A stretch of 64,000 nucleotides of DNA. Source: Haloprofundus halobius (GTDB lineage Archaea > Halobacteriota > Halobacteria > Halobacteriales > Haloferacaceae). Positions 47,595 to 51,292 of the stretch are shown here, piece after piece (the stretch's first letter is position 1; each line of letters begins with the position of its first letter). A program made the translations under genes and the position numbers. A model generated the notes under the pieces. The model saw only the letters and a list, made by a program, of their open reading frames with translations, did not search any database and was not told the DNA's origin. The stretch lies in NCBI RefSeq assembly GCF_020097835.1, contig NZ_CP083666.1, positions 2,666,001 through 2,730,000 of the forward strand, in the 5' to 3' direction.

Positions 47595-48908
47595 ATGAAA
47601 CAGCTCCTCCGAAACGCCCCGTTCCGTCGGCTCTTTCTCGGTCGTCTGGTGACGAACGCGGGCGATAGCGTCTACTACATCGCGGCGATGTGGCTCGTAT
47701 ACGACTTGACGGGTGATCCTGCGGTGTCGGGTCTCGCCGGGTTTCTCTCCGCCGCACCCTCCGGATTGCAGTTTCTCGCCGGGCCGCTCGTCGACCGCTG
47801 GAACCTTCGACGCGTGCTCGTCGGCACACAACTCCTCCAGTTCACGCTGATTCTCGCGATTCCCGCCGCGGCCGCGCTCGGCCACCTCTCCGCGCCGCTC
47901 GTCCTCGTCGTGATGCCGCTGCTCTCGCTGACGAACCAGTTCGTCTATCCCGCGCAGTCGGCGGCACTACCGCGCATCGTCGAACGCGACGAACTCGTCT
48001 CGGCGAACTCGCTGTTCTCGCTGGCGTACCAGGGCGTCGACGCCGGATTCAACGCGCTCGCGGGCGTCCTCATCGCCGTCGTCGGCGCGGTGACGCTGTT
48101 TCTCGTCGACGCCGTCACCTTCGTCGTCGCGGCGGTGCTCTTCGCGGGGGTCGTGGTTCCGCCGTCGAATCGGACCGGCGACTCGTCGTCCGCCGGAGCG
48201 GGTGAGTCGGACGGAGCCGTCGTCGCCGACGGTGGAGCCGACGAAAACGGTGAGAGCGACGACATTGACGGTAAGCCGTCGTATCTGACGTCGCGCCGAG
48301 AGGGTATCGACTACCTACGGGGAACCGTCGTGACGTACATCCTCGTCAGCGCAGTCGGGGTCAACTTCGCCTCCGGGGCGGCGCTCGCCTCCATGCCAGC
48401 CTACGCGGATTCGCTCGGTGGCGCGAGCGTCTACGGCGCGCTCATGGCGGCGCTCGCCGGCGGAATGTTCGTCGGCGCGGTCGGTGCGTCGAAAGCAGAG
48501 TCCATCCCCTTCGGACGACTCAGCGTCGCCAGTTTCTCACTCTCTGGACTCCTCTGGCTCGCCTCGGTCGTCGCCGCCACCGTGTTCGACTCCGTCGCGG
48601 CGGCGGTCGTCTTGTTCGCGCTCACGTCGATACCCGTCGGCGCGTTCAACGTGCTCATGGCAGCGCTCGTCCAGTCGATAGTGCCGGATGGGCTCTTGGG
48701 CCGCGTCTCTGCGGTACTCGGTAGCGTCGCGTCGGTTGCAGTGCCACTCGGATCTCTCGTCGTCGGGGTCGTCGCGGGGGCGTCCTCCCCGGCCGTCCTC
48801 TTCTACGGCGCAGGCGTCGCGATGGTGTGTCTCGGCGGTTACTGGGCCGCGGTGCCGACGCTTCGACGCATGCCGCCCGTCGCAGAGACCGAGACGCTGA
48901 ACGTCTGA
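47595..48908 (+). CDS. MFS transporter
   Basis: A 437-residue 12-span transporter. It starts at ATG 47595 (MKQLLRNAPFRRLFLGRLVTN); the motif NAPFRRLFLGRLVTNAGDSVYY is the N-terminus typical of the MFS_3/enterobactin-exporter-like group. A long acidic loop (residues about 195-235) separates the halves. It is likely an exporter; the substrate is unknown. It ends 48 bases before the trpS leader frame, whose own TATA lies after this stop. Confidence 0.88.
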   Translation: MKQLLRNAPFRRLFLGRLVTNAGDSVYYIAAMWLVYDLTGDPAVSGLAGFLSAAPSGLQFLAGPLVDRWNLRRVLVGTQLLQFTLILAIPAAAALGHLSAPLVLVVMPLLSLTNQFVYPAQSAALPRIVERDELVSANSLFSLAYQGVDAGFNALAGVLIAVVGAVTLFLVDAVTFVVAAVLFAGVVVPPSNRTGDSSSAGAGESDGAVVADGGADENGESDDIDGKPSYLTSRREGIDYLRGTVVTYILVSAVGVNFASGAALASMPAYADSLGGASVYGALMAALAGGMFVGAVGASKAESIPFGRLSVASFSLSGLLWLASVVAATVFDSVAAAVVLFALTSIPVGAFNVLMAALVQSIVPDGLLGRVSAVLGSVASVAVPLGSLVVGVVAGASSPAVLFYGAGVAMVCLGGYWAAVPTLRRMPPVAETETLNV

Positions 48909-48924
48909 GCCGCTCGCCGACACG

Positions 48925-48935
48925 CTTTTTTAATC
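48925..48935 (+). promoter_or_regulatory. TATA element of the trpS leader transcript
   Basis: cttttttaatc, centred about 26 bases before ATG 48956. The spacing predicts a transcript starting at or just before the leader ATG. No comparable element precedes the trpS ATG at 49120. Confidence 0.65.
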
Positions 48936-48955
48936 ACCGCATCTACGAACAGTCG

Positions 48956-49033
48956 ATGAACACCGCTCCCTGGCGCTGGTGGTCGCCCGCCTCGGGAGCG
49001 GACAGTCCCCCCGTCGTCGTCGCCGCGGCGTAA
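48956..49033 (+). CDS. trpS leader peptide with Trp-Arg-Trp-Trp
   Basis: A 25-residue frame, MNTAPWRWWSPASGADSPPV then VVAAA, stopping at TAA 49031-49033. Three Trp codons stand within four (48971, 48977, 48980), a very rare density. A TATA box is placed for leaderless translation of exactly this ATG. It lies upstream of trpS in the same direction, with no promoter in between. I read it as a regulatory leader peptide that stalls the ribosome when tryptophanyl-tRNA is scarce. A stand-alone small protein is the alternative. Confidence 0.75.
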   Translation: MNTAPWRWWSPASGADSPPVVVAAA

Positions 49034-49088
49034 CCCGGCGACCGCGACGCGGGCGCTCACTTCGTTCTCCTCTGTTGCATCGCGGTCG
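49019..49088 (+). promoter_or_regulatory. Two mutually exclusive inverted repeats between leader and trpS
   Basis: Stem A pairs 49019-49025 (GTCGCCG) with 49036-49042 (CGGCGAC); its left arm lies in the last leader codons. Stem B pairs 49039-49047 (CGACCGCGA) with 49080-49088 (TCGCGGTCG). The arms share 49039-49042, so A and B cannot both form. A ribosome stalled on the Trp codons would leave A free to form, and one that reaches the stop would cover A's left arm and favour B. B is not followed by a T tract, so the step controlled (termination or translation) is open. Confidence 0.6.
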
Positions 49089-49119
49089 ACCAGTACGACG
49101 AACCAATCCACCAGCACCC

Positions 49120-50274
49120 ATGCCAGAGTTCACCGTCACGCCGTACAGCGTCGAGGGCGAGGTCGACTACGACCGCCTCCTCGACCAGTTCGGCGCAGAT
49201 CGACTGACAGACGAACAGCTAGCCGAGTTCCCTCAGCCGCCGCACCCCCTGCTCCGCCGCGGTGTCTTCTACGCCGGACGCGATGTAGACCGGTTCACGA
49301 GTGCCGCCAGTGAGGGCGAGACCGTCTCGCTCGTGACCGGCCGAGGGCCGTCGGGACCGATGCACCTCGGTCACGTCCTCCCGTTCTACTTCGCGAAGTG
49401 GCTGCAGCAGAAGACGGGCGCGTACGTCTACGTCCCGCTCTCGGACGACGAGAAGTATTTCTCGAAAGATCTCGACTTCGAGGAGATACACGAACACACG
49501 CGCGAGAACCTCCGCGATTTGGTCGCCGTCGGCTTCGATCCCGAGCGGACGCGCTTCGTCGTCGACACCGCCGACGCCGATGTCGTCTACCCGCTGGCCG
49601 CCGAGTTCGCCAAAGACATCACGCCCGCGACGGTCGAAGCGACCTACGGCGACCCGCCGAACGTCGGCCTCGGATTCTACCCGGCGGTGCAGGCGACGCA
49701 TCTGCTGTTGCCACAACTGCTCCACGGCCGTCACCCGACGCTCGTCCCCATCGCCGTCGACCAGGACCCGCACATCCGCGTCTGCCGCGACATCGCCGGC
49801 AAACAGCGCTACGACGTAGAGAAACCGGGCGCGCTGCTCTCGAAATTCCTGCCCCGGTTGGGCGGCGGGGGCGGCAAGATGAGCAGTTCCGGTGACGAGC
49901 CGAGCATCTACCTCACCGACGACCGCGAGACAGTACGCGGAAAAGTGTCGAGATACGCCTTCTCCGGCGGTCAGGCCGATATCGACGAACACCGCGAGAA
50001 GGGCGGCGACCCCGAGGTGGACGTGGCGTACCAACTGCTGTTCTCGTTCTTCGAGTCGGACGACGAGACGGTCGAGCGACTCGCGCGCGAGTACCGTGAC
50101 GGCGAACTGCTGAGCGGTGAGCTGAAGCAGTACGCCGCCGACCGAATCGCCGACTTCCTGGAGAGCCACCAGTCGCGGCGACCCGAGGGACCGATTCGCG
50201 ACGCTGTCGACGCGTTCCGCCTGACCGACGAGGAGCGAGCACGGGTGCGGCCGGACGTGTTCGACGAGAGCTGA
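49120..50274 (+). CDS. trpS: Tryptophan--tRNA ligase
   Basis: A 384-residue archaeal/eukaryal-type TrpRS. GPMHLGHVLPFYFAKW contains the HIGH-type motif and GKMSSSGDEPSI the KMSKS-type loop. GFYPAVQATHLLLPQ is the family's substrate-binding segment. It charges tRNA-Trp. There is no TATA at the right distance before ATG 49120, nor a clear ribosome site, so it should be expressed from the leader promoter at 48925. That ties its expression to the Trp-rich leader. Confidence 0.96.
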   Translation: MPEFTVTPYSVEGEVDYDRLLDQFGADRLTDEQLAEFPQPPHPLLRRGVFYAGRDVDRFTSAASEGETVSLVTGRGPSGPMHLGHVLPFYFAKWLQQKTGAYVYVPLSDDEKYFSKDLDFEEIHEHTRENLRDLVAVGFDPERTRFVVDTADADVVYPLAAEFAKDITPATVEATYGDPPNVGLGFYPAVQATHLLLPQLLHGRHPTLVPIAVDQDPHIRVCRDIAGKQRYDVEKPGALLSKFLPRLGGGGGKMSSSGDEPSIYLTDDRETVRGKVSRYAFSGGQADIDEHREKGGDPEVDVAYQLLFSFFESDDETVERLAREYRDGELLSGELKQYAADRIADFLESHQSRRPEGPIRDAVDAFRLTDEERARVRPDVFDES

Positions 50275-50362: not shown

Positions 50363-51292
50363 ATGAATCGCGTGCGGACGGCCGGGTTGTTCCTTCTCTT
50401 ACCGCTGCTGTTCGGGGCCGCCTTCCCGGCTATCAAACTCGGACTCGACTACGTCCCGCCGCTTCTGTTCGCCGCGGGGCGCTACCTGCTCTCGGCGCTT
50501 CTGCTTCTCGGTTTCTCCGCCGCGACGACCGACGCGTGGCTGCCGCGGACGCGAGACGACTGGATAGCCGTCTTCGGCGCGGGCGTCTTCTTCATCGGCG
50601 GCACCGGACTCCTCTACCTCGGCCAGCAGTTCACCACCAGCGGCGTCGCCGCCATCATCTACAGTCTCATCCCGATTCTGACGCCGCTCATCGCGTGGGG
50701 GTTACTGCCGCACGAGCGGTTCTCGCGACGATACGTGTTGGGACTGTTCGTCGGCTTCGTCGGCGTCGCACTCGTGATCCGACCGGACCCGTCGAATCTC
50801 CTCGGAGAGTCCGTCGTCGGCGAGGGACTCGTCCTGTTGGCGGCGACGAGCGTGACGCTCGGCAGCGTGCTCATCCGGCGCTACCGGCCGACGATGTCAG
50901 TCGTCGCGCTCACCGGCTGGGCGATGGTCCCCGGCGCGCTGCTGCAACTGGCGTTCAGCGCCGCCATCGGCGAGTCGCTCGTAGCCGTTCGTCCAACGGC
51001 GACGGTACTGTTGCTATTGCTCTACCTTGCGGTGTTCGCCAGCGGCGTCGGCTTCGCCGTCTACTTCTATCTCCTAGAGACCATCGGACCGCTGCAGGTG
51101 AACCTCATCTCGTATCTCATCCCCGTCGTCGCGGTCACCGTCGGGTGGTTCTTCCTCGACGAACCCATCACGGCGCTCACGCTCGTCGGCTTCGGCGTCA
51201 TCGTCGTCGGCTTCGCGCTCCTGCGCGGCGACGACCTCGCGCCGATACTGCGTCGGCGACTCCGCGGACTCCGCAGACGCCCGGCCGCGTGA
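50363..51292 (+). CDS. EamA/DMT-family transporter
   Basis: A 309-residue protein with ten spans in two EamA repeats: PLLFGAAFPAIKLGLDYVP opens the first and GEGLVLLAATSVTLGSVLIR the second; LLYLGQQFTTSGVAAIIYSLIPILTPL is a family block. It is likely a metabolite or drug exporter; the substrate is unknown. A TATA (ggttaattc) lies 28 bases before the ATG. Its place after trpS allows, but does not show, an amino-acid link. Confidence 0.9.
   Translation: MNRVRTAGLFLLLPLLFGAAFPAIKLGLDYVPPLLFAAGRYLLSALLLLGFSAATTDAWLPRTRDDWIAVFGAGVFFIGGTGLLYLGQQFTTSGVAAIIYSLIPILTPLIAWGLLPHERFSRRYVLGLFVGFVGVALVIRPDPSNLLGESVVGEGLVLLAATSVTLGSVLIRRYRPTMSVVALTGWAMVPGALLQLAFSAAIGESLVAVRPTATVLLLLLYLAVFASGVGFAVYFYLLETIGPLQVNLISYLIPVVAVTVGWFFLDEPITALTLVGFGVIVVGFALLRGDDLAPILRRRLRGLRRRPAA

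Follow-up and report, generated by a model that had tools for sequence, protein, structure and literature searches.

A candidate ribosome-mediated tryptophan attenuator upstream of an accessory tryptophanyl-tRNA synthetase gene in haloarchaea

Ribosome-mediated attenuation is a textbook form of bacterial gene regulation, and the attenuator of the auxiliary tryptophanyl-tRNA synthetase (TrpRS) of Streptomyces coelicolor has reportedly been studied experimentally by Vecchione and Sello. In Streptomyces, trpS/trpS2 and leuS are preceded by classical trp-type attenuators (PMC1262725), and the logic and even the target of the element described here are therefore known from bacteria. Archaeal termination does not need a hairpin and instead relies on U-rich RNA read by RNA polymerase or by FttA/aCPSF1 (PMC8116511, PMC11616081, PMC8716108). 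While FttA/aCPSF1 termination offers a hairpin-free, U-rich output that could be masked by RNA pairing, it constitutes a general termination route, and attenuation by FttA/aCPSF1 was not found in the literature searched.

The locus lies in a 64,000-nucleotide stretch of Haloprofundus halobius DNA (contig NZ_CP083666.1, positions 2,666,001 to 2,730,000), hereafter the window, and trpS and the features of its upstream region are on the forward strand. The gene trpS (49120..50274) encodes an accessory TrpRS of 384 amino acids, whose score against NF008927 is 541 bits, above the NCBIfam curated cutoff of 478. Its accessory nature was absent from an earlier sequence-only reading of the window; a separate main TrpRS, about 35% identical to it, is encoded in the same genome (G000:C1:2950562). 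The accessory TrpRS is patchily distributed, being present in 148 of 392 Halobacteriales genomes, and the closest named relative found is that of Haloprofundus marisrubri (90%). Directly 3' of trpS, at 50363-51292, is an EamA/DMT-type transporter gene with a weak match (43 bits) to YddG, an aromatic amino acid exporter, which is a possible functional partner of trpS.

Upstream of trpS lies an element that shares with the Streptomyces attenuators a UGG-rich leader, exclusive RNA structures and an accessory TrpRS as the target. Unlike them, it is archaeal, appears to sit on a leaderless mRNA, is without an intrinsic hairpin and U-tract terminator, gives no match to Rfam Trp leaders, and has an antiterminating pair (2:3) that would itself cover the pyrimidine tract. 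As in the E. coli trp operon leader, the position of the ribosome would decide between helices 1:2 and 2:3, but here no 3:4 terminator hairpin was found, the leader start adjoins a stem arm and the domain of life is another. Synthetase genes controlled by tRNA charging also recall T-box riboswitches, from which the element differs by its coding leader; a T-box riboswitch or an Rfam Trp leader was rejected, since an Rfam search over 48400-49400 gave no match beyond chance, including to T-box, stem I and the Trp_leader covariance model. Measured against bacterial trp-type attenuators, the element has a short leader ORF with many copies of the cognate codon (Trp codons in 143 of 156 orthologues, and a Ser-rich version before serS) but not the intrinsic terminator, a G+C-rich hairpin followed by a U-tract, and would thus work like a trp-type attenuator without being a member of the bacterial type. 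No bacterial-type promoter or terminator is present in the window, and the absence of a T-tract terminator noted from the sequence alone holds, with 0 terminator-like sites in the window. Overall, an on/off switch worked by ribosome stalling, like those of bacteria, is suggested, and no archaeal ribosome-mediated attenuator was found in the literature searched, in which subscription journals were thinly covered.

Conservation was assessed over the upstream regions of 156 haloarchaeal TrpRS orthologues. The leader ORF of the window (48956..49033) runs for 25 codons from the ATG at 48956 to the stop TAA at 49031-49033 and encodes MNTAPWRWWSPASGADSPPVVVAAA; short ORFs with closely spaced Trp codons recur in 143/156 of the orthologue regions. 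A stricter definition of the Trp uORF is satisfied by 139/156 orthologues compared with 31/2987 random window positions (1%), so that the Trp run is not a matter of chance, and the Trp-rich 25-codon frame with three TGG codons described in the sequence-only reading is correct in all its positions (48971-73, 48977-79 and 48980-82). The leader peptides typically follow the pattern M..SAP/SAL..W[R/Q/H/P]W..ADS..AA, and Trp is retained though the run itself differs among leaders (WRW, WRWW, WQWRW, WRWRW, SWSWPW, WWRWW). One leader, L115, carries TGA in place of the second Trp codon TGG. The Trp-Arg-Trp-Trp codons of the window (48971..48982) fall in the loop of helix 1:2, where 138/146 loci have two to four in-frame TGG codons and 8/146 have one. 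Moreover, where the leader stop is found 17-32 nt beyond region 2, the span across helix 1:2 (P1) equals 2 mod 3 in all but 7 leaders, and it is uniformly 1 mod 3 in a leader class (f17) with a different stop; the loop indels therefore preserve the reading frame.

A BRE/TATA promoter of the leader transcript occupies 48920..48934, with a T-rich/TATA stretch at 48926-48934 and the TATA box near -30 to -22 relative to the leader ATG. When 142 leaders are combined, A+T content has maxima at -36..-34 (BRE) and -30..-25 (TATA) relative to the start codon, over a background of 0.36, so that the TATA position is not a matter of chance; an 8-mer with at least six A/T is found at the expected promoter place in 70% of loci compared with 13% at random positions. 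Because the BRE/TATA pair keeps a constant spacing to the leader start codon, the leader mRNA is predicted to be leaderless, and this spacing suggests that the transcript starts at the leader ATG. There is no TATA between the leader and trpS in the window.

A common RNA layout is shared by 146/156 orthologues. Region 1 (ACCGCTCCC, 48962..48970), spanning leader codons 3-5, forms the left arm of helix 1:2, as seen in the pair counts and by RNAalifold, which predicts the helix unprompted; in 115/146 loci it begins precisely 6 nt 3' of the first base of the start codon. Its partner, region 2 (GGGAGCGGA, 48994..49002), is a shared arm identified by pair counts and mutual information that can alternatively pair with region 3 (TCGTTCTC, 49062..49069), the pyrimidine-rich rival partner defined by pair counts and duplex energies. 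Between them lie the left arm of P2 (AGT..., 49004..49011; 81.5% of cells paired with 49050-49057, double changes at 4/8 pairs), the mini-hairpin P3 (49025..49037), and the right arm of P2 (49050..49057), supported by conserved columns and pair counts, which continues into a conserved GCTC[AC]CT block (49055-49061) located 52-54 nt from region 2 in 135/146 loci. P3 has conserved alignment columns with the motif GGCNTMACC, contains the leader stop codon in the window, and has two inner pairs preserved in nearly all sequences.

Sequence comparison indicates that helices 1:2 and 2:3 are both conserved across families, with strong covariation for 1:2 and modest covariation for 2:3. In helix 1:2, 95.9% of cells are paired, with double changes at 4/9 pairs (44 sequences), and the top three pairs of an untargeted mutual-information scan all fall within it, each paired in 120/120 sequences. 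In helix 2:3, 93.8% are paired compared with 56-69% in slid controls (0/500 shuffles), and the double changes are few, numbering 13; covariation counts throughout are inflated by relatedness. The duplex energy of 2:3 beats that of a shuffled region 3 in 41/43 genera, with no such gain in windows farther downstream. However, when region 1 is removed, a shuffled region 3 still pairs with region 2 in about 39/42 loci (MFE) because purine faces pyrimidine, region 2 being purine-rich and region 3 pyrimidine-rich, and the case for 2:3 therefore rests on register and duplex strength. Nor was 2:3 pairing reduced when the region 3 of one genus was exchanged for that of another; since pairing drops little or not at all in either test, neither is counted as proof.

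The sequence-only reading had proposed that the ribosome chooses between two exclusive stems, A (49019-49025/49036-49042, GTCGCCG/CGGCGAC) and B (49039-49047/49080-49088, CGACCGCGA/TCGCGGTCG). Both can be read in the window exactly as given, yet congeners do not conserve them: L004 has a disrupted stem A, while L002 and L003 lack the right arm of B. As the switch they were rejected, since they already fail within the genus, and the conserved exclusive pair is 1:2 versus 2:3. That reading would have fallen with a lack of conservation of the Trp codons or stems in relatives; the Trp codons proved conserved, the named stems did not, and a different pair is conserved in their place. The underlying idea of ribosome position choosing between exclusive stems is strongly supported by about 150 orthologues, by covariation and by copies of the element at main TrpRS, trpDFE and serS genes.

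Folding models over 107 loci, in which the ribosome is assumed to cover 18 nt before and 12 nt after the A-site codon and which use standard 37 °C energies rather than high-salt values, are consistent with such a switch. In the modelled naked RNA, 1:2 is dominant in 79% of the loci and 2:3 exceeds 0.5 in 17%. With a ribosome on the first Trp codon, 2:3 is predicted to exceed 0.5 in 86% of loci, compared with 33% when region 3 and its tail are shuffled, while with the ribosome at the leader stop 1:2 is dominant in 66% and 2:3 exceeds 0.5 in 11%. At the window locus, the model gives 2:3 a value of 0.96 in the stalled state and 1:2 a value of 0.85 at the stop codon, where region 3 is nearly free. 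In the models, the two helices thus behave as mutually exclusive structures set by ribosome position.

The spread of the element was examined with a covariance model built from it, which was run on 392 Halobacteriales genomes with an E cutoff of 0.01. Matches occur in 190/392 genomes, including 142/148 with the accessory TrpRS, the remaining 6/148 having none; a 247-genome sample of the phylum gave 0 matched genomes outside Halobacteriales, and no element lies 5' of the distant archaeal orthologues L039-L047. Weak matches (E 0.001-0.01) looked like chance, with no leader, and were discarded. Another 35 genomes, which lack the accessory gene, give matches of 1e-6 or better, and in 28 of these the element precedes the main TrpRS. 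In a sole case among the 392 genomes (L267, G049:C166:6144-6271), an element with the leader MLSAFRSWSWRWYRSGKRTVS precedes trpD-trpF-trpE; a general haloarchaeal trp-operon leader is ruled out, as up to 29 other trpD upstream regions have Trp uORFs at chance level and no element. In two genomes of one genus, an element with the Ser-rich leader MESTSRSRSQSSFWEVDS.. (Ser codons SRSRSQSS) lies 5' of the seryl-tRNA synthetase gene serS (L215, L217). The gene downstream thus concerns the same amino acid for TrpRS of two kinds, trpDFE and serS. That the leader codons fit the gene they precede, for Trp over three gene types and also for Ser, argues more strongly than anything else for decoding as the signal.

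Versions without Trp codons are rare (loop-masked model, 80 genomes). The exceptions to the match are GNAT acetyltransferase, methyltransferase and ABC transporter genes; three of the 35 genomes lacking the accessory gene have GNAT acetyltransferases downstream and one a methyltransferase. The GNAT cases (L216, L219, L274 and L194) are spread over several families and have leaders without a clear codon run (MRVASHPNMCGRHTEKRPVS.., MSALSTFAVTSRERTVRSAA, MVALSGWRRRVPG..); they are perhaps drug-inducible resistance genes. At L197/L198 the element precedes a SAM methyltransferase gene (leader MVSVSYLMRWLTFWEADS..), and at L230 an extra copy precedes an ABC transporter gene (leader MMSATGLGPVLWHGSTVADS..), the accessory TrpRS being present in the same genome. 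A second copy of the Ser version (L238, in G214) has a broken serS remnant downstream. Further, the element is followed at L204 by only a short accessory-TrpRS remnant, and L183 is a second, truncated accessory copy; the unit seems to undergo duplication and decay.

We consider it probable that the element is a ribosome-mediated attenuator that senses charged tRNA-Trp, in which 2:3 hides a U/C-rich termination or processing site. The promoter position, the Trp coding, the two helices and the cognate genes come from comparative sequence, and the switch from modelling; we infer stalling, the termination output and induction by Trp limitation. Transcription from the promoter would begin at the leader ATG and yield a leaderless mRNA. 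Under a shortage of Trp-tRNA, the ribosome would stall on the Trp codons and cover region 1, allowing region 2 to pair with region 3, which would close the P2 hairpin and hide the U/C-rich region 3, and RNA polymerase would continue into trpS. With ample Trp-tRNA, the ribosome would reach the stop codon, 1:2 would form, and the transcript would end or be cut at the single-stranded region 3, most probably through the archaeal termination that depends on U-rich RNA (FttA/aCPSF1 or intrinsic). Because archaeal termination uses U-rich RNA without a hairpin, a 2:3 helix hiding region 3 would be an antiterminator.

Termination is the presumed output step, and cleavage or a translational output are less probable. 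Region 3 is U-rich and consists mostly of pyrimidines at +10..+16; it has neither hairpin nor U-tract of the bacterial kind, and runs of at least four T occur in it in 33/146 loci, the longest being three or fewer in 113/146. The aCPSF1 of M. maripaludis requires U4 tracts (PMC8716108), which counts against the attenuator reading, region 3 seldom having such runs. The same lack of long U runs, along with the endonuclease activity of FttA and its preference for U-rich RNA (PMC11616081), would suit a sensor acting on mRNA cleavage or stability, with free region 3 as the site of FttA or another nuclease and 2:3 protecting finished transcripts. This is unlikely, given a leaderless start, an ORF and a three-segment layout that fit co-transcriptional folding, and no degradation signal was identified. 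We judge equally improbable that reinitiation at trpS, or access of ribosomes to it, is controlled by translation of the leader in place of transcription termination: the window shows no evident promoter-like or ribosome-site sequence immediately 5' of trpS, and translational coupling is known in prokaryotes including archaea, but the distance from the leader stop to the start of the trpS alignment, about 77 to 335 nt across orthologues, is long and variable for coupling, and region 3 is far from the start codon in most loci.

The sensor itself could be conceived otherwise. Uncharged tRNA-Trp might bind the RNA in T-box fashion, the looped UGG repeats pairing with the CCA anticodon, or TrpRS might autoregulate, the ORF being incidental and the synthetase targets fitting either case. 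Against this very unlikely account stand the lack of an Rfam match, the start codon 6 nt 5' of region 1 in 115/146, the frame-keeping loop lengths, the varying number and spacing of Trp codons (WRW, WQWRW, SWSWPW, WWRWW) and the several Ser codons of the serS version. Still harder to credit is a functional small protein, although the peptide sequence is conserved: conservation of residues tracks the paired arms and the run of Trp codons, whereas leaders differ in C-terminus, length and stop position, and in the f17 class region 2 is read in a different frame.

Beyond the attenuator reading preferred for the accessory trpS, one may tentatively imagine, though we lean slightly against it, a general haloarchaeal class of stall-sensing attenuators, in which one RNA frame carries interchangeable codons, with Trp leaders at TrpRS and trpDFE, Ser leaders at SerRS, and unusual leaders at acetyltransferase, methyltransferase and ABC transporter genes. 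For these last the signal may be ribosomes stalled by drugs, as it is in the bacterial erm and cat leaders.

If confirmed, the element would imply a coupling of transcription and translation in archaea tight enough for a ribosome on a leaderless mRNA to steer elongation, and it would provide a native assay for archaeal coupling as well as for archaeal termination. It would also represent convergence with Streptomyces at the same target gene, the auxiliary TrpRS.
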